A stretch of DNA of 57,832 nt from Alitabrizicola rongguiensis (GTDB lineage: Bacteria > Pseudomonadota > Alphaproteobacteria > Rhodobacterales > Rhodobacteraceae): positions 1 to 57,832 of the forward strand of contig NZ_JAKENF010000007.1 of assembly GCF_021491355.1 (NCBI RefSeq), given 5' to 3'. This document shows positions 1,142-14,809 of the stretch, one piece after another. The first letter of the stretch is position 1. Every line of letters begins with the position of its first letter. Under the pieces are notes generated by a model, which was given only the letters and a program-made list of their open reading frames with translations, made no database searches and was not told the origin of the DNA. Position numbers and translations under genes: made by a program.

Positions 1142-2257
1142 TTATCCCCTCGCCCGAGCCGCCCCGAACCGCCGCCGCATCTCGAGCGCTGGCGCTTCGA
1201 TGAGATGCCAGGACAGGACGGCGCAGATCAGGGTCAGCGGCAGGGCGAGGGCGATGTTCAGCCCCGGGCCCATCGGCCCCCAGAGCCAGATGACCAGGCC
1301 CTGTAGCGGGAAGGCATAGACATAGATCCCGTAGCTGTAATCGCCGATGCGGTTGTAGCCGAGGATCGCGCCGCGCGGGATGAAGGCCAGCCAGAAGGTG
1401 CCGTAACCGATCGCCAGAGCCAGGACCGGCGGGAAGGCGGTCGTGCCATGGGCAAGCCAGGTCAGGAGCGCCAGAGCCGCCAGGATCGGCAGCGACAGGG
1501 GCATGCGGTCGCGGATGGCATAGAAGGTCGTCCCGATCGCGAAGGGCAGCGAGAGGCGGTGCAGGCTGTCGAGTTTCGGATGAAGGTCGAGGCCCGCGAA
1601 GTGATAGGCTGCCCAGGCGAGGTAGAAGCCCGCAAGGAAGACGAACAGCCGCCGCCGGTCGCGGAAGGCCCCGGCGATGCCGATCAGGAAGATGCCCCCA
1701 TAGCAGGCCACTTCATAGAACAGGGTCCAGATCGAGCCTTCGACCGCCGGATAGGGATTGGTCTCGAACACGCCGGGAAGCTCGTAGGCCGGCGAGACGA
1801 GAAGCATGTTCTTCGGCACGAATTCCAGGAACTCCCGGTCGCGGAAATACTCTGCCAGCGGCAGCGAGGTGACGGCCGGCCCCATCACCAGCGCGACGAG
1901 CAGGAGCGAGACCAGAAGGCCCGGAAACAGGCGCAGGCCACGGGCGGCGACGAATTGCGCAAGGCTTTCCGACCGGGCGAAGCTCGCTGCGATCAGGTAG
2001 CCCGAGATCACGAAGAAGACGTCGACCGCCAGCGAGCCGAGCGACTTGCCGAAGAACCCCTCCAGCGGCTCGGCTGCTCCCGGTCCGAGGCTGAGCGGAT
2101 AGGCATGCGACACCAGCACCGCCGTCGCGGCGAGCGCCCGGATGAGGTTGAGGTTGTTGTCACGCCCGCGGGCCACCTCGGCCAGTTTCGGGTTACGCAC
2201 TGCTGCCAGCAAGGTGGTCCTGCTCCTGTCCTGCGCGTTCAATCCCACTTCAAGCAC
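1142..2257 (-). CDS. Acyltransferase 3 family membrane protein (OafA-like)
   Basis: This is a 371-residue polytopic protein of the acyltransferase-3 family, which transfers acyl groups (usually acetyl) to surface sugars. After an N-terminal tail of about 35 residues comes the family motif NLIRALAATAVLVSHAY, with Arg40 and His51 at the usual Arg-(10)-His spacing; the His is the expected catalytic residue. About ten hydrophobic segments follow. There is no SGNH extension, unlike the 55639 gene. The start used is GTG at 2257; a shorter start within the tail cannot be excluded. It is divergent from the adenylation-ACP-AT3 fusion at 2514 and has much higher GC than it. Substrate unknown; a role in EPS O-acylation is inferred from context. 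Confidence 0.88.
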   Translation of the reverse strand: MLEVGLNAQDRSRTTLLAAVRNPKLAEVARGRDNNLNLIRALAATAVLVSHAYPLSLGPGAAEPLEGFFGKSLGSLAVDVFFVISGYLIAASFARSESLAQFVAARGLRLFPGLLVSLLLVALVMGPAVTSLPLAEYFRDREFLEFVPKNMLLVSPAYELPGVFETNPYPAVEGSIWTLFYEVACYGGIFLIGIAGAFRDRRRLFVFLAGFYLAWAAYHFAGLDLHPKLDSLHRLSLPFAIGTTFYAIRDRMPLSLPILAALALLTWLAHGTTAFPPVLALAIGYGTFWLAFIPRGAILGYNRIGDYSYGIYVYAFPLQGLVIWLWGPMGPGLNIALALPLTLICAVLSWHLIEAPALEMRRRFGAARARG

Positions 2258-2513: not shown

Positions 2514-5159
2514 ATGTCGATGAATGTGTTCTGGGATCTTCAGAATGTCCCGAGGGAAGCACCTGCGCTCATCGTCCCGGGACATCCAGCCGTCAGCTAT
2601 GGAATGCTGGCGACATTGGCAGAAGACTGGAAGAAACAACTTTTGGAAATGGCTGCCGGTCGGCGGCCAATAGTGGCACTCGAATTCTCAACGAGGGTAG
2701 AAGCAGTTGCCGCCTATCTGGGGGCATTGCAAGCGGAGTTGCCGGTGCTCGCCCTTGAGCCGGGGCAACTGGCTACCAGTTCTGCACTTCAGCATCGCTG
2801 GCAGCCAGAAATACGTATAGCCGAGCACCTAGGAACGCTGGTCGCCAGCGAAAACGCCGCGCCCGCTGTGGCGGCTGATCCGCACCCAGACTTACGCCTT
2901 CTCCTGTCTACCTCTGGCAGCACGGGTGATCCGAAGCTCGTCAGACTTTCGGCGCGGAACATCGACAGCAATGCGCGATCGATTGCCGAGTATCTAGCTA
3001 TAACCGTAACTGATCGGGCAATGACGACATTGCCCATGTTCTATTCCTACGGCCTTTCCGTTCTGAATTCCTATCTAGCGTCAGGGGCGGCTCTGATCCT
3101 TACCGAGCGATCTGTGGTTGATCCGGCCTTCTGGAGGGAGTTCAGCCACCACGATGCTACAAGCCTAGCTCTGGTGCCACACCAGTTTGATCTCCTTGAT
3201 CGCAATGGCTTCTCAGAGAGAGATTTGCCTAAGCTGCGCTATATTACACAAGCTGGCGGAAAGCTTCCGACCGAGACTGTGCGCCGCTTTCACGCGATGG
3301 GCATCAAGGCGGGCTGGGACCTTGTTCTGATGTATGGTCAGACCGAAGCCGCCCCCCGCATTTCCTATGTTCCACCAGAAGCGCTGCCCGGCGCCGCCGA
3401 CACAATTGGGCGTGCTATCCCGGGAGGTCACCTGAGGCTGGAAGATGAGGCCGGGGTAGAAATCACCCGCCCCGGCATTCCCGGCGAACTCATCTATGAA
3501 GGGCCCAACGTGATGATGGGCTATGCCGAAACACGAGAGGATCTTGCTCGCAATCCGGAAGTTGATCAGCTCCGAACTGGCGACATCGCAGAGCTCACAA
3601 ATGCTGGCCTTTTTCGCATTGTTGGACGGCTCAAACGCTTCGTGAAGTTATTCGGACTGAGACTTAGCCTAGACCAAATCGAAGCCTTCTTGTGTGACAG
3701 TGGTATCCCTGCGCATGCAGTTACTGTCGACGACAACCTTGTGATTCTACACGAGAAAAATGGACAAGGCACGGCAGCTCGAGAAGCTGTGGCCGCCAAA
3801 TACGAACTGCCGCTAGCTGTGATCCATACAGGATACCTGAAGGAGCCACCTTTACTCACATCGGGAAAAACCGACCACAAGACACTCCGACTAATCGCAT
3901 CAGAGGTATTGGCTGAAGCTGGAAATCAAAAGCAAGCGCAGAAAGGTGAAACCATTGCCGAGGCGCTAAGGGCAGCAACACGCAGCCCGGCAGTCACCCC
4001 AAAGGACAGCTTCGCGACCCTCGGTGGTGACTCGCTCAGTTATCTGCAGATGCAGATGGCGCTAGAGCATCGGCTTGGCCACGCACCGAACGGCTGGGAG
4101 ACCATGAGTCTTGAACAACTTGAGGCTCTTGATCCCATCAGCCCTTCGTCAGCGCAGCGGACACCCATCGGCATCGATGTTGTGCTAAGGCTTCTCGCAA
4201 TCTGTCTGGTGGTTGGCCAGCATGCAACAGACTATCCGCTTTACGGTGGAGTATGGATGCTAATCGCTATAATGGGCTATTCCGCAGCTCGCTTCCAATT
4301 TCACTTGATCATAGAGGGCAAAGCACTGCGTCTTGCATGGAGGATGCTATACCCCATCGTTCCGTTATACTTCATGTTGCTACTGGCCTATGGAATGTTT
4401 CGCAAAGAGGTGCCGAACAGCAGCATCCTACTATATGGAAACTATGAACTTTGGCCAAAAGGATCATTACTGACTGTCTACTGGTTTGTAAGCCTTTATG
4501 TTCAGATTGTTGCAATACTAATGCTAACCTCCCTAATAGGGCCTATTCGAAGGGAATTGGGGAGGTCACCATGGCGAATGGCTATGCTTGCAATGCTACC
4601 GCTTCTTGCTCTCACATCCGCTCTCACCTTGCTACCTGGCATGATTGACAAAGATAATATTGCGATTTTCCCATTGTTGCATTACCCAACTCGCGGCCTG
4701 GTGGAATGTCTGCCAATCTTCGTCATTGGTTGGATGATACAAAAGGCGAAAGGAAATCTGCAAACAGCAATCACATGCATTTTAGCCATAACAACTTTGC
4801 TTATCTTTACAAAAATCTCAGATGGAACTGCCCCTGCATTATTTCTAACCTTAACAGTAATACTGTTAGCAATAAATCCAACAGTAGAGATTCCAATAGG
4901 TTGGTCTCGAAAAATTCAGCAGCTTGCAGGAGTAACGCTTTTCGTCTATCTCTTGCACGAAGTAGTTATATATAGCCTCGATGGACTGAAAATGCCGCAG
5001 CCTATAAGAATGATTTTTGCAATTATATTATCATTCATTGCTGCGCTTGCCTCTAAAAAGATCTTCGAGTGTGTTGACCGCGGTGCGACGAGGCTTGTTA
5101 CAGGAGTGCTAGGACGGCGCAGTCTCCGGTCAGACAGCCGGTTCTCGGGTATGAGGTGA
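2514..5159 (+). CDS. Adenylation domain - carrier protein - AT3 membrane acyltransferase fusion
   Basis: This is an 881-residue, three-part protein. Residues about 10-460 are an acyl/aminoacyl-AMP synthetase domain, with STSGSTGDPK (132-141), YGQTEA (274-279), RTGD (354-357) and a C-terminal SGKTDHK (450-456) carrying the catalytic Lys. Residues about 480-540 are a carrier domain with GGDSL (504-508), Ser507 being the phosphopantetheine site. From about 552 it is a polytopic AT3 domain starting IDVVLRLLAICLVVGQH, with the usual Arg/His pair (His570). Inferred function: activate a small carboxylic or amino acid, load it onto the built-in carrier and pass it to the membrane domain for transfer to a surface glycan, in principle like the separate Dlt proteins. 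The substrate is unknown. Low GC suggests a different origin from its neighbours. ATG 2520 is an alternative start. Confidence 0.9.
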   Translation: MSMNVFWDLQNVPREAPALIVPGHPAVSYGMLATLAEDWKKQLLEMAAGRRPIVALEFSTRVEAVAAYLGALQAELPVLALEPGQLATSSALQHRWQPEIRIAEHLGTLVASENAAPAVAADPHPDLRLLLSTSGSTGDPKLVRLSARNIDSNARSIAEYLAITVTDRAMTTLPMFYSYGLSVLNSYLASGAALILTERSVVDPAFWREFSHHDATSLALVPHQFDLLDRNGFSERDLPKLRYITQAGGKLPTETVRRFHAMGIKAGWDLVLMYGQTEAAPRISYVPPEALPGAADTIGRAIPGGHLRLEDEAGVEITRPGIPGELIYEGPNVMMGYAETREDLARNPEVDQLRTGDIAELTNAGLFRIVGRLKRFVKLFGLRLSLDQIEAFLCDSGIPAHAVTVDDNLVILHEKNGQGTAAREAVAAKYELPLAVIHTGYLKEPPLLTSGKTDHKTLRLIASEVLAEAGNQKQAQKGETIAEALRAATRSPAVTPKDSFATLGGDSLSYLQMQMALEHRLGHAPNGWETMSLEQLEALDPISPSSAQRTPIGIDVVLRLLAICLVVGQHATDYPLYGGVWMLIAIMGYSAARFQFHLIIEGKALRLAWRMLYPIVPLYFMLLLAYGMFRKEVPNSSILLYGNYELWPKGSLLTVYWFVSLYVQIVAILMLTSLIGPIRRELGRSPWRMAMLAMLPLLALTSALTLLPGMIDKDNIAIFPLLHYPTRGLVECLPIFVIGWMIQKAKGNLQTAITCILAITTLLIFTKISDGTAPALFLTLTVILLAINPTVEIPIGWSRKIQQLAGVTLFVYLLHEVVIYSLDGLKMPQPIRMIFAIILSFIAALASKKIFECVDRGATRLVTGVLGRRSLRSDSRFSGMR

Positions 5160-5195: not shown

Positions 5196-6206
5196 TCAGG
5201 AATGAAAGAAGACCCAACGTCGAAGCACTGGCTGCAGCAGTAATGCGATTGGCAGACATAACAGGACGATAGCGGCAGCTGAGAACCAGATCGCTATCTG
5301 TTTGGCGATTTCATCTGAAGGTTGAGGCAGAGCAGAAGCAACGCGCACCAAGTAGATGTGCAAGGCAAAGATAGTCAACGTATTGAACGAAATGCTCCGC
5401 GCTAGGCGGGTGGCCGGAATCTGCGCAGCAAGAGACATGGTTGCAACCGATCCAGAGAGCGCTGCGAGAAGAAAGAGTAGACCATTCTTGCCAAATTCCG
5501 CTCCATTTATGTTTGTAGGGCCATTTAGGATGGAGATTCCGACAAGAAGTAAAATGGTTACGATGGAGGTTGCTATAGCTGCGCGCGGCGCTTCAACAAA
5601 GGACGCTAGCGATTCGTAGTGCTGGCGAAACTGATATCCAAAAAATATCATGGCGCTTCCTGTGCCGGCGATCTCGATGTCCCAAGGTAACCTAGGTCCG
5701 TGATAGAGAAAAGCCACGGAAGCGTAAGCAAGGATTACTACCCAGCCAAAGATAGTTCCTAAGCGTGACGATATGTAGACCGCTAACCAAGTTCCTATCA
5801 TTGAAGATACTAGGTAAGGGAAATACCACAGTGGTTGGTTCTGATGCACAAGTCCATTCTTCTGTCCTGCCACCCCATAAAATGAGCCCCAAACCGCTGG
5901 CAAGGGAGATATCAGGCTACGATGGGCCACGATAGAGCCAACCCACCAAATCGTAATAGCTATTAAGCTAAAAAATACGTAGGCGCGCAGGTATGGTCCA
6001 ATCCAGCGTCTGAGGAGGCCCTGAATGCCGATAAAGCGGAAATCATTTGGCAGAAGGAAACCCGTAATGAAGAGAAAAGCTGGAACATGAAATGCATAGA
6101 TAATGCTCTTGCCGTAGATTGGACCATAGACGTAATGAAAATGGCCAAGAACAACCAAGAAAATCAGTATGGCCTTTGCGTTGTCTATCCATGTAATTCG
6201 TTGCAT
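5196..6206 (-). CDS. Acyltransferase 3 family protein, fucose-4-O-acetylase-like type
   Basis: A 336-residue polytopic membrane protein. Its N-terminus, WIDNAKAILIFLVVLGHFH, is the form of the AT3 signature with Asp/Lys and His found in the fucose-4-O-acetylase-like branch (COG3594 type), rather than the Arg-His form of OafA. The start at 6206 was chosen because GGA lies 7 bases upstream and the motif begins eight residues in; the open frame continues upstream to 6314, but that stretch is uncharacteristic. Its stop faces the stop of the fusion gene at 2514-5159, 36 bases away. It shares the low GC of that gene. Probably acetylates a repeat-unit sugar; the acceptor is unknown. Confidence 0.85.
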   Translation of the reverse strand: MQRITWIDNAKAILIFLVVLGHFHYVYGPIYGKSIIYAFHVPAFLFITGFLLPNDFRFIGIQGLLRRWIGPYLRAYVFFSLIAITIWWVGSIVAHRSLISPLPAVWGSFYGVAGQKNGLVHQNQPLWYFPYLVSSMIGTWLAVYISSRLGTIFGWVVILAYASVAFLYHGPRLPWDIEIAGTGSAMIFFGYQFRQHYESLASFVEAPRAAIATSIVTILLLVGISILNGPTNINGAEFGKNGLLFLLAALSGSVATMSLAAQIPATRLARSISFNTLTIFALHIYLVRVASALPQPSDEIAKQIAIWFSAAAIVLLCLPIALLLQPVLRRWVFFHS

Positions 6207-6328
6207 TTTTGTTCCGAGCATGGTCTTGGATGTGACGATAGAAGTTGTCTCGATGCGGATAATTTTGGTTTGGTCTTGACAGAGCATGATTTGTCTTATG
6301 TCCACAATGGTCAAGGCTTCGAACCTCG

Positions 6329-11507: not shown

Positions 11508-12356
11508 TCAGTAGGAATAGGCGTCGTAGCTCTGGTGCTTGTCGAGATAGCGGCACTTGTTCAGCACCACGCCCAGGACATTGGTCTGCGCCGCCAGTTC
11601 GCGCTCGCAATGATCGACCTCGGCGATCGATGTCGCCCCTGCTGCCGCAACGATCAGCACGCAATCCACCCGCCGGGCAAAAGCCATCACGTCATCGCCC
11701 ACCTGTGTCGGCGGCAGATCGACGATCAGCAGGTCGGGGGCATAGCGCCGCTCGATCTCGGCCAAAGTGGTTTCAGCCGTCGGCGCGTGCAAGAGTTCGG
11801 CCGAGTTCCGCACCGCGGCATGGTTGGTGGCGATCGCCAGGTTGAGGCCGCGCACCCGGGCCAGATGATCTGCCACATCCGCCCCGCCGTCGAGCGTCTT
11901 GGAGAACTGGTGGCGGGTCTGCAGCTCGAGCGTCCGCTCCATCGACGGGCGGCGCAGGTCAAGCTCGACCACCACGGTGCGCAGTTCCGGCTGGCGGGCC
12001 AGGCTGAAGGCCAGGTTGAGGCACATCATCGTCTTGCCGCAGGCCGGGTCGGGTGAGGTGATCGCCAGGCGTTTCCACCCCTGGGCGCGCATCTGCTGAA
12101 GCACCCGCGTGCGGATGACGTCGAAGGCCGTCGCGGCCGGGCCGGGAATGTTGGTCACGATCCGGTGCTTGGCCAGCACCTTGGACGGGATCACTACTTC
12201 CGAGAGGGCGTCCCAGGCGGCAGGGGCCGTCCCGGTCGCGGCTGCGGGAGATGGGCTGCCGGGCTGGGTCGCGGCTTGCGGCGCGGCGGCGGTTCCGGGA
12301 ACCTTGCCCTCGCGGGCGGCGCGGGCCTTGCTGATGGCGGACTGGATGCGTTCCAT
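11508..12356 (-). CDS. Tyrosine autokinase (BY-kinase, CpsD/Wzc C-terminal type)
   Basis: A 282-residue cytoplasmic P-loop kinase. It has a Walker A-like SPDPACGKT (101-109), the Walker A' ELDLRRPS (131-138) typical of bacterial tyrosine kinases, a Walker B LLIVDLPP (209-216), and a C-terminal tyrosine cluster (Tyr270, 277, 280, 282) for autophosphorylation. BY-kinases cycle with a Wzc/Wzz-type membrane partner to control polymer length and export. Here that partner is the separate gene at 12372-13916, whose stop lies 15 bases upstream, as in split CpsC/CpsD or EpsF/EpsG systems. The first 50 residues are an Ala/Pro-rich linker. It is the last gene of the 14809-11508 operon. Confidence 0.9.
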   Translation of the reverse strand: MERIQSAISKARAAREGKVPGTAAAPQAATQPGSPSPAAATGTAPAAWDALSEVVIPSKVLAKHRIVTNIPGPAATAFDVIRTRVLQQMRAQGWKRLAITSPDPACGKTMMCLNLAFSLARQPELRTVVVELDLRRPSMERTLELQTRHQFSKTLDGGADVADHLARVRGLNLAIATNHAAVRNSAELLHAPTAETTLAEIERRYAPDLLIVDLPPTQVGDDVMAFARRVDCVLIVAAAGATSIAEVDHCERELAAQTNVLGVVLNKCRYLDKHQSYDAYSY

Positions 12357-12371
12357 CTTCTGTCTCCTTCC

Positions 12372-13916
12372 TCAGGTTGCCGAGCCGAGCGTGGCCACAA
12401 AGCCCGCCATGCCGGACTTGTCCATCAGTCTCGCGATCAGCAGATCGAGCGGCAGATAGAAGACATGGATCGCATAAAGCGTTGCGGGAATGCCGATGAG
12501 CCCCAGCAGCAATCCGAGCGAGATGACCGTGCGCCGGACCGTCGTCTCGCGCGCGGTGCGGATATAGGGCACGGCGCCGAAGGGCTGGATGCCGAGACGC
12601 GAAGACAGGTCGCTCGGTCGCTGGATCGAGCGGTTGAGCAGTTCGAGCAGCAGCACGACCGCCAGGCCGAGGCCCATGCCCGCGCCGACAGAGGCCGCGG
12701 CGATCAGCGGCCGGTTCGGACTGGTCGGGGCTCCCGGCACGGTCGCCTGTTCGATCACGGTGATCCGCTGGCCTTTCGACATGGCCTCGATCCGGTCGCC
12801 GGTCGCGGCCGTTGCCTGGCGTTCGAGCGCCTGGCTGTATTGCAGCTGGATCGACTTGTAGTCGCGGTCAAGCACGTCAAGCGCGATGGCATTGGCCGGC
12901 GTCGCGTCGATCGAGGTCTTGAGCTGTTCGAGTTCGGCCTCGATCTGCTTCTTCTGCTCGACCTTCGCGGCAATCTGCGTGTCGAGGTCCGAGAGCTGGA
13001 TATCGAAAGCCGAGGGTTGCCCCTCGCCCTGCGTCGCCCCCATCTGCTGGGCGACCACGCCTTCAAGCTGGGTGATCTGTGCCTGCAGCACCTTGATCTT
13101 GGGGTTCGCCGGCGCATAGACCAGAAGCGCGGTGGCGAGCTGGCGCTGAAGATCCTGCAGCTTCTTCTCCTCGGGGCTCCGCGGCTCGTTGCTCACCTCG
13201 CCGACCTGGCCAGTCCGGTTGAAAAGATCGATCAGCTTTGAGCGCCGTTCGTTCAGGTCGGTCAGGTCGCGGTCAAGCTGCGTCAGCCGCTCCTGCTGGG
13301 AATCCTGGCGGGCACGGCGGTAGGACAGGCTGTCGGGCAGCGCGTCCTTGTTGGCGAGCTTGAACTCGAGGATCTTCTGGCTCTGCCGGGCCATGTCCTC
13401 GTTCAGCCGGGCGACCTCCTGGTCGAAGAATTCCAGTGTCTGGCCCGAGGCCTGGCTGCGCATCGCCACGCTGGCCTGCAGGATCTGGGTGACGATGTCA
13501 TTCGTCACCTCCGCCGACATCTGCGCCGAGGCCGCCGAGAAGGAGATCGTCACGAAACTGCCCGACCGCTTGACCAGGATGCGGTTGCGCATGTCCGTCA
13601 CGATCTGGTCGGGGGTCATGCCGGGCATGTTCTTGTAGATGTTGAGCCGGCGCGCCATGTCGAGCAGGTTGGCTCGGGTCGAGAGCTGTTGCTGCACGAT
13701 CTTGAGCGTCTCGCTTACCTTCGCCGAAACGGTGGAGGCCGCCAGTTCGCCGGGGATCTGCGGGCTTTCGACCAGAAGCGTCGCCTGCGCCTCGTAGGAG
13801 GGTGGCAGGATATAGGCCAGCGTGATGCCGATGGCCGAAACCGCTACCGCGATGATCGCGAAATAATGGATGCGCCGGAGGAAGCGCGAGAAGTAGAACT
13901 TGAGATCGAAATTCAT
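12372..13916 (-). CDS. Polysaccharide chain-length determinant (Wzz domain, GumC/EpsF-like)
   Basis: A 514-residue inner-membrane polysaccharide co-polymerase. It has an N-terminal span (residues about 18-36, FAIIAVAVSAIGITLAYIL), a Wzz domain, a long periplasmic coiled-coil region (about 150-370), a proline-rich PGAPTSPNRPL motif and the second span (about 410-430). A further hydrophobic C-terminal segment follows, and there is no kinase domain. Length and layout fit the XrtA/EPS-type chain-length proteins. The kinase function is in the next gene (11508-12356). Its ATG overlaps the stop of the upstream ATPase gene by 4 bases. It organises polymerisation and export with the Wzy-like (25097-26563) and OPX (46014-46607) proteins. 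Confidence 0.92.
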   Translation of the reverse strand: MNFDLKFYFSRFLRRIHYFAIIAVAVSAIGITLAYILPPSYEAQATLLVESPQIPGELAASTVSAKVSETLKIVQQQLSTRANLLDMARRLNIYKNMPGMTPDQIVTDMRNRILVKRSGSFVTISFSAASAQMSAEVTNDIVTQILQASVAMRSQASGQTLEFFDQEVARLNEDMARQSQKILEFKLANKDALPDSLSYRRARQDSQQERLTQLDRDLTDLNERRSKLIDLFNRTGQVGEVSNEPRSPEEKKLQDLQRQLATALLVYAPANPKIKVLQAQITQLEGVVAQQMGATQGEGQPSAFDIQLSDLDTQIAAKVEQKKQIEAELEQLKTSIDATPANAIALDVLDRDYKSIQLQYSQALERQATAATGDRIEAMSKGQRITVIEQATVPGAPTSPNRPLIAAASVGAGMGLGLAVVLLLELLNRSIQRPSDLSSRLGIQPFGAVPYIRTARETTVRRTVISLGLLLGLIGIPATLYAIHVFYLPLDLLIARLMDKSGMAGFVATLGSAT

Positions 13917-14809
13917 TCCGCCTGTCTCTCTATTCGCCGGGCCCCTCCCCCGAAGAAGACCCCGTCGTCCAGCACCCGCTGGACCGTTACTCGCATGACA
14001 CGCTTGTTATTGCCGGTAAAGGCGTAGACCAGCGCAAGATCGCAGAGCTGGTTCACAAGTCGCGGAACCCCGCCCGTTGCCTGATAAATCAGCTCGCTCG
14101 CCGCCATAGAGAAGAGCGCCGTCTTGGCGCCGGCCACCTTCAGACGGTGGGCGATGTAATGGCGCACCGTCGCCTCGTCCATCGCGTTGAGGTGGAAATG
14201 GGCCGAAACCCGCTGAGCGAACTGCGTCATGTCGGGCCGGAGCACGATGTCGCGCAATTCCGGCTGACCGACGAGCAGAAGCTGCAGGAGCTCATCCTTG
14301 TTGGTGTTGATGTTGGTGAACATCCGTAGTTCTTCGAGCGCCGAGCGGTTGAGGTTCTGCGCCTCGTCGAAGATCAGGAGCACCCTGCGCCCTTGGGCAT
14401 ATTCCTCGATCAGCCGCGCCTGGAACTGCGCGAAGAGATCGACATAGGAGGTGTTCGGATCGGCGGGCCAGCCGAGCGCCATCAGCACCCACCGCAGAAG
14501 CTCACCCCGGTCGCCCTGGGCGTTCGAGACGAGGCCCACCTTGATATCCTCGCCGAGCGAGCGCAGCAGGTATTGCAGGAGCGTGGTCTTGCCCGCACCG
14601 ACCTCGCCGGTGATGAGGGTGATCGGTGCCTTGGTCAGAAGCCCATATTCCAGCATCGTGTAGGTCCAGCGATGCATGGGCGACCAGAACATGAAGTCAG
14701 GATCGGGCTGAAGCGAAAACGGCCGTTCCCTGAGCCCGAAATGCTCATTGTAGATATCGAGGGAACTGCCCATCTCGCGCGCGCCAAGCCTGCCTTCTTT
14801 GCCTGCCAT
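13913..14809 (-). CDS. ExeA-like AAA ATPase associated with exosortase/EPS loci
   Basis: A 298-residue AAA+ protein. It has the family N-terminus YNEHFGLRERPFSLQPDPDF, Walker A GEVGAGKTT, Walker B LLIFDEAQN and the sensor-like LLVGQPEL. These ATPases regularly accompany the chain-length and kinase genes in exosortase-linked EPS loci; their exact role is not known. The 4-base ATGA overlap with 12372-13916 shows tight coupling, and the three genes form one operon. The start could be the Met at 14773 (MGSSLDIYNEHFGL), which is closer to the conserved region; I kept the longer frame because neither has a decisive ribosome-binding site. Confidence 0.88.
   Translation of the reverse strand: MAGKEGRLGAREMGSSLDIYNEHFGLRERPFSLQPDPDFMFWSPMHRWTYTMLEYGLLTKAPITLITGEVGAGKTTLLQYLLRSLGEDIKVGLVSNAQGDRGELLRWVLMALGWPADPNTSYVDLFAQFQARLIEEYAQGRRVLLIFDEAQNLNRSALEELRMFTNINTNKDELLQLLLVGQPELRDIVLRPDMTQFAQRVSAHFHLNAMDEATVRHYIAHRLKVAGAKTALFSMAASELIYQATGGVPRLVNQLCDLALVYAFTGNNKRVMRVTVQRVLDDGVFFGGGARRIERQAE

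Follow-up and report, generated by a model that had tools for sequence, protein, structure and literature searches.

A probable self-loading acyltransferase: fusion of adenylation, carrier and AT3 membrane domains in Alitabrizicola rongguiensis and other bacteria

Alitabrizicola rongguiensis encodes an 881-residue protein in which an adenylation (A) domain, a phosphopantetheine carrier (PCP) domain and an AT3 membrane domain follow one another in a single chain. Its gene occupies positions 2514 to 5159, on the forward strand, of the window, the whole 57,832-nucleotide stretch of contig NZ_JAKENF010000007.1 that was analysed. We think it probable that this protein is a self-loading trans-membrane acyltransferase, which activates an acid, loads it on Ser507 and transfers it by its AT3 domain to the outside of the cell. 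The A domain would adenylate a small carboxylic acid (a hydroxy-, oxo- or dicarboxylic acid being likelier than an amino acid) and then load it, in thioester linkage, on the phosphopantetheine carried by Ser507. The phosphopantetheine arm, about 50 residues before the AT3 domain, would take the role of free acyl-CoA, entering the AT3 pore from its cytosolic opening and bringing the thioester to His570, and the acyl group would pass to an acceptor at the outer face, here probably a sugar polymer or lipid-linked repeat of an XrtA-type EPS locus. No description of an AMP-binding/PP-binding/AT3 fusion was found in open-licence PMC full text, a scope outside which many subscription papers fall, and the A-PCP-AT3 fusion is apparently a previously undescribed variant of the AT3 family.

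Each part of the chain carries recognizable active-site features. The A domain (residues 1-463, positions 2514-3902) matches Pfam AMP-binding over residues 117-337 (E 3.7e-43), contains the motifs STSGSTGDPK, YGQTEA, RTGD and SGKTDHK, beginning at residues 132, 274, 354 and 450, and has the A10 lysine, Lys452, at 3867-3869. The carrier domain (residues 481-540, positions 3954-4133) matches Pfam PP-binding over residues 481-522 with 22.5 bits against a cut-off of 20.8, and has Ser507 at 4032-4034. With the A core motifs, the A10 lysine, the carrier serine and both Pfam cut-offs passed, this half of the protein is an NRPS-like A-PCP unit. The AT3 domain (residues 553-873, positions 4170-5132) carries Arg559 (4188-4190), His570 (4221-4223), Tyr812 (4947-4949) and His815 (4956-4958), all on the forward strand. 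Ser507, Lys452, Arg559, His570 and Tyr812 are each invariant in 21/21 aligned fusions, namely this protein and 20 others from loci L022-L045, the alignment omitting a near copy (L036), the second copy in L042, a truncated protein (L041) and two that have no AT3 part (L039 and L044). The first-pass annotation had described a single chain of adenylation, carrier and AT3 parts, a layout that the open reading frame, Pfam, the conserved residues and the AT3 profile match confirm; the synthetase motifs, Ser507 and the Arg/His pair (Arg559-x10-His570) that it quoted were all located as described. The AlphaFold model of the whole protein (pLDDT 85.4) has a pTM of 0.51, a value at which it makes no prediction of the relative placement of the domains.

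Pfam gives no match for the AT3 part of this protein, even at E 10. However, a profile of fused AT3 domains (14 sequences, namely this protein and 13 relatives) aligned by hhalign with a profile of 24 Pfam-positive AT3s at 97.6% (E 2.8e-12, 296 columns). The negative controls, six membrane proteins of other kinds, entered as single sequences and hence a weaker test than alignments, reached 0.0-0.1% against the fused profile and 0.0-0.6% against the ordinary one. The fusions of L076, L079 and L080 match Pfam Acyl_transf_3 above the cut-off, and their AT3 domains share a supported clade with that of A. rongguiensis; in L079 and L080 AMP-binding, PP-binding and Acyl_transf_3 all exceed their cut-offs. 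Modelled alone, the AT3 part is mainly helical and confidently predicted (pLDDT 87.8, pTM 0.86). A fold search of this model against solved structures gave no useful match (best E 0.67), and a viral structure library gave one that is suggestive only, to an unnamed protein of 637 residues (E 6e-3, probability 1.00, TMq 0.57). Profile similarity thus points to a divergent AT3 (PF01757) domain with 10 TM helices. Like OafB, OatA and OacB, it combines the profile match with R-x10-H in TM1 (R559/H570, in 21/21 fusions) and YLxH in TM9; unlike its PF01757 kin, it follows an N-terminal A-PCP unit and usually has no acidic residue three positions before the TM1 arginine. The sole exception to R-x10-H that was noticed is the truncated copy of L041 (1-2400), from a metagenome-assembled genome, which has glycine at the arginine site.

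The fusion is not confined to this strain, and the uniqueness attributed to it from the sequence was overstated. A filter on the carrier and TM1 motif yielded 62 ORFs, of which 53 were distinct; these, the A. rongguiensis protein (making 54) and three more gave 57 A-PCP-AT3 proteins for comparison, which belong, with few exceptions, to the Alphaproteobacteria and Actinomycetota. The combination recurs in two phyla. A scan of genome contigs returned 48 loci, 24 that contain fusions, whole or truncated (L022-L045), and 24 with stand-alone ligases (L046-L069). The AT3 part matched 11/295 genomes of the family, its own included, and all 13 matches lay in frames of at least 828 residues; the AT3 profile matched 5/385 genomes of the class, again with its own, where five candidates were scored in most genomes, and 11/199 genomes of the family of a Microbacterium, two of these 11 being short partial matches. 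Matches were also present in 103 plasmid records. All 12 that were examined hold full-length fusions, annotated merely as AMP-binding protein or AMP-dependent synthetase. One plasmid (L137) is labelled Roseateles and is an unverified betaproteobacterial record. Sphingomonas solaris (L042, 5674-12292) has two fusions with different A types and an AT3-like gene between them. A candidate for a natural split version, L039, where an AT3 gene lies beside an A-PCP gene, was rejected: the contig is short and a putative transposase gene follows.

In the window, the fusion gene lies among AT3, SGNH, GT2/glycosyltransferase and XrtA-type EPS genes. Its convergent neighbour, AT3b (5196-6314, reverse strand), is an AT3 acyltransferase with a Pfam score of 75.2 bits. 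A second AT3 gene, AT3a (1142-2257, reverse strand; Pfam), has a normal GC3 and is 54% identical to a relative in the EPS locus of the congeneric genome G299. At 1-924 on the forward strand is an SGNH domain (Pfam, 124 bits). The contig is exactly as long as the window, and this domain is probably what remains of an AT3-SGNH protein truncated where the contig begins. As parts of AT3-type genes occur at both contig ends (1-924 and 57710-57832), the assembly perhaps broke at repeated AT3-SGNH genes. The XrtA/PEP-CTERM-type EPS genes (11508-14809, reverse strand) encode a tyrosine autokinase, a chain-length determinant and an associated ATPase, with TIGR03018, TIGR03007 and TIGR03015 as best NCBIfam matches, all three below the curated cut-offs. 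GC3 is 0.52 in the fusion gene and 0.50 in AT3b, compared with 0.61-0.90 in the 44 remaining called ORFs, in gene calls that favour high-GC3 frames. Searches of the six congeneric genomes, of which two are 83% and 87% complete, found neither gene. In G299, seven further genes of the region have relatives (AT3a, three glycosyltransferases, the kinase, the chain-length protein and the ATPase), partly rearranged, without the fusion or AT3b. On these grounds the two genes appear to be strain-specific and newly added to the EPS locus, perhaps gained together.

These neighbours make EPS a plausible acceptor for the A. rongguiensis protein, as the first-pass annotation had supposed, and a fusion of the same clade with 54% identity (L027) adjoins genes for a Wzx-type protein, a pyruvyl transferase and a glycosyltransferase. 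As a rule for the family the EPS target did not hold: there was no EPS cluster in the 12 annotated plasmid neighbourhoods, and importer genes were found instead beside other fusions. ABC importer genes of the FbpA/FbpB, iron-type kind lie near 10/48 fused loci (L030, L031, L033, L035, L036, L133, L134, L135, L141 and L142), a count that includes near-copies (L033/L035/L036 and L133/L142); they accompany 8/9 of the actinobacterial loci and 2/39 of the others, the latter in Pararhizobium and Paracoccus. For most of these 48 loci the surroundings covered reached about 5-15 kb per side, and for several (L071, L074, L075, L122 and L141 among them) one side or both were shorter than 3 kb. As importer genes adjoin nearly all the actinobacterial fusions, the acceptor may differ between branches. 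The FbpA proteins beside fusions form two lineages that are only about 26-29% alike, and the link between importer and fusion may have arisen more than once. Among other neighbours, glutaredoxin and MerR-type regulator genes occur at L135 (6614-7892) and L137 (10537-11775), near the fusion in each case, and on a plasmid of Rhizobium sp. Kim5 (L131, 14959-22594) the fusion is followed by AAA ATPase, YcaO-like and TfuA-like genes, a possible RiPP context.

The strongest alternative keeps the same carrier-to-AT3 chemistry in cis and places the acyl group elsewhere: on a lipid of the membrane, on a different glycan of the envelope, or on a small molecule that is secreted and perhaps connected with metal uptake. 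The gene would then have entered the EPS locus by horizontal transfer. The importer genes and their two FbpA lineages are in keeping with this, as are the several plasmid copies that have no evident partner genes and the foreign composition of the A. rongguiensis gene. Against it stand the AT3, SGNH and glycosyltransferase genes that the fusion adjoins here and the gene neighbours of L027, and we regard a non-EPS acceptor for this protein as possible, though the less likely case.

Trees of the two ends of the protein indicate that its modules have been exchanged. The fused AT3 domains fall in two supported clades, the first of 47 rows, including the A. rongguiensis protein (support 100/98), and the second of 10 fused rows and one stand-alone protein (support 100/99), nested among stand-alone AT3s; supported branches force at least two changes. 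In the tree of A domains, made by a quick method, 49 fused A domains group together within the stand-alone ligases, a second clade comprises L080, L081, L042b, L146 and L151, L123 is alone, and L076 and L079 lie elsewhere, in a place flagged as a possible long-branch artefact; four changes are needed here, of which only two are forced by supported branches. The trees disagree with each other and give five A/AT3 combinations, A types 1 and 2 occurring with both AT3 types and type 3 with the first. The clearest swaps are L032, L045 and L145, which have an A domain beside the clade of the A. rongguiensis protein and an AT3 domain of the other type. Two AT3 lineages are thus joined to at least three types of A domain. 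In three pairs of proteins dN/dS was 0.11-0.39 in the A, PCP and AT3 parts, which indicates purifying selection on all three. An origin of the fusion by chance or assembly artefact was rejected, given this selection and the recurrence of the architecture in two phyla. The repeated joining of a carrier to an AT3 domain argues for a carrier that feeds the AT3 domain in cis, and the hand-off within one chain that had been proposed from the sequence remains the best reading of these repeatedly re-assembled modules. We lean towards the view that a branch of AT3 enzymes changed its donor from acyl-CoA to a carrier arm on the same chain, and that such enzymes were built more than once with at least three kinds of A domain, so that acids without a CoA ester could be exported and attached.

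At position -3 from the TM1 arginine, part of the DxxR motif that lies by the cytosolic CoA site, 23/24 ordinary AT3s have Asp, Glu or Asn, compared with 5/54 fused proteins; these five belong without exception to the second AT3 type. Kinship among the proteins makes these counts non-independent. The 24 controls were drawn from 32 candidates (30 loci and the two AT3 genes of the A. rongguiensis region) after six below the Pfam cut-off (L097 and L104-L108) and two near-copies (L094 and L096) were dropped. Arg/His tallies over the 54 fusions are circular, as the selection filter demanded R/K-x10-H, whereas the Asp position was not a criterion; L038 and L072, which are full-length and fail the filter, and L130 and L041, whose N-terminal end is cut, lie outside the 54. 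In the A. rongguiensis protein position -3 is Val and position -4 is Asp; in all, 21/54 fused proteins, this one included, have one of the three residues Asp, Glu and Asn at -4, which weakens the contrast. Asp is present at -3 in three stand-alone proteins akin to the second fused AT3 type, L147, L148 and L150 (L150 with Lys in place of Arg). The Asp of DxxR is reported to be dispensable in OacB in the part of that study drawn on (PMC12423673), so its absence does not exclude membership of the AT3 family. A carrier arm has no adenosine part, a difference that the loss of the acid would fit, and we take the loss as moderate evidence of a donor switch. RxxR in TM3, found in 13/54 fused proteins and 19/24 ordinary AT3s in an uncertain register, was set aside as a mark of such a switch, the counts being mixed.

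It could also be that the AT3 half still draws on free acyl-CoA, that the A-PCP half makes its thioester for another enzyme and that the fusion serves co-localisation or regulation only. The TM1 Arg/His pair is kept in the fusions, and in simulations of OafB, as described in PMC9833829, these residues contact or lie near acyl-CoA, Arg14 and Arg74 contacting the 3'-phosphate; basic residues also remain near TM3 of the fused domains. However, both halves have been assembled repeatedly, the DxxR acid is kept in the stand-alone AT3 relatives and absent from most fused proteins, and an unsystematic look through the annotated neighbourhoods showed no recurring acyl-PCP partner, and we consider an acyl-CoA donor improbable. 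Donor channelling from the fused carrier is also compatible with the spacing of the parts, there being 48-96 residues between the carrier Ser and the TM1 Arg (median 53, n=53) under a filter that permitted 40-160. As AcpS was the only phosphopantetheinyl transferase found in a search of the genome, priming of the PCP is not assured.

The acid that is activated can be approached through the A domain. Foldseek placed the N-terminal part with ANL enzymes, including oxalate-CoA ligase, HitB and MatB, among the best 50 of 1099 matches, and in the A4 region LPMFYSYGLS lines up with the LPLFHVHGL of one such enzyme, oxalate-CoA ligase, which is of the small-acid CoA type. In this alignment Ser178 occupies the position of an Asp of LgrA, which we take to be the amino-group-binding Asp of A domains for alpha-amino acids. 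Residues 174-185 contain no Asp or Glu in 49/49 fused A domains of this lineage and 24/24 stand-alone ligases, and Met273 and Arg282 are invariant in the same two sets. The best NCBIfam match of the fusion protein is ligase_PEP_1 (TIGR03098; E 5.1e-44, 150.6 bits, below its cut-off of 592). The stand-alone ligases that lie near FabG-type reductase and LuxE/LuxC genes have pocket residues in common with the fused A domain; both these and ligase_PEP_1 differ from the fusion in being separate ligases with no AT3 domain. At three such loci of the same A lineage (L049, L061 and L066), LuxC is close in 3/3, a FabG-type reductase and LuxE were each present in the two checked, and one has a PP-binding gene. 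Two of these three ligases match the model of the 2-oxoglutaryl-ACP ligase AmcH below its cut-off; AmcH is not among the 25 NCBIfam models listed for the fusion protein. Our best guess is a hydroxy-, oxo- or dicarboxylic acid, and amino acids, which had been put forward beside other acids as cargo, are not supported, given Ser178 and the absence of acidic residues around it. L076 (6476-10501) and L079 (7694-11791) encode chains of about 1350 residues in the order Condensation-A-PCP-AT3, in effect an NRPS module with a membrane acyltransferase at its end; their A domains carry the Asp typical of amino-acid A domains, and the PCP of L076 is visible only as an LGTDSL motif. A Dlt-like aminoacyl transferase, its A domain loading an amino acid such as D-alanine or glycine for a polymer, would explain a layout that mirrors DltA-DltC-DltB and AlmE-AlmF-AlmG (PMC12148441, PMC12930378) and the Asp at the 178 position in L076 and L079, but is very unlikely given the 49/49 A domains without Asp or Glu at 174-185, the alignment of A4 with oxalate-CoA ligase, and the invariant Met273 and Arg282 common to 24/24 stand-alone ligases.

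The Dlt system, as presented in PMC12148441, keeps activation, carrier and transfer on separate proteins, with the carrier DltC feeding the MBOAT protein DltB. DltA-DltC-DltB(-DltX-DltD) thus resembles the fusion in ATP-dependent activation, a phosphopantetheine carrier, a membrane transferase fed by that carrier and a polymer outside; it differs in its separate proteins, its MBOAT transferase and its D-Ala cargo, the fusion being one chain with a domain that is AT3 by profile and probably having no amino acid as cargo. This contrast had already been drawn by the first-pass annotation, and both the Dlt source and the AT3 profile match bear it out, but it made no mention of two other parallels. 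One is the epsilon-poly-L-lysine synthetase Pls, described in PMC8117764 as a single-chain A-T-membrane enzyme, with A and T domains and membrane helices and without a normal C or TE domain; according to that source it is a polymerase with six TM helices and three soluble acetyltransferase-like domains, whereas the fusion has an AT3 domain and no soluble acetyltransferase-like domains were seen in it. The other is AlmE-AlmF-AlmG, in which an A enzyme, a carrier and a transferase decorate lipid A, in the account of PMC12930378 as separate proteins and with glycine as cargo. The sphingan glyceryl transferase was considered as a parallel and set aside. By analogy, the hand-off from carrier to AT3 domain in cis is best read as the AT3 counterpart of the step from DltC to DltB.

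In many bacteria the glycans of the cell surface are decorated by AT3 proteins, which are described as users of acyl-CoA; in the part of a review of the family drawn on here, the donor is given as acyl-CoA rather than ACP, and the fusions named are those with SGNH and alanine-racemase domains (PMC9558356). If a carrier-fed branch of this family exists, as we infer, its pore would accept a phosphopantetheine arm without the adenosine part, and a wider range of acids could be placed on glycans. Such a protein would be a modular enzyme for polymer tailoring, in which the A domain is swapped and the AT3 domain kept, and the record of swapped modules makes donor channelling directly testable.
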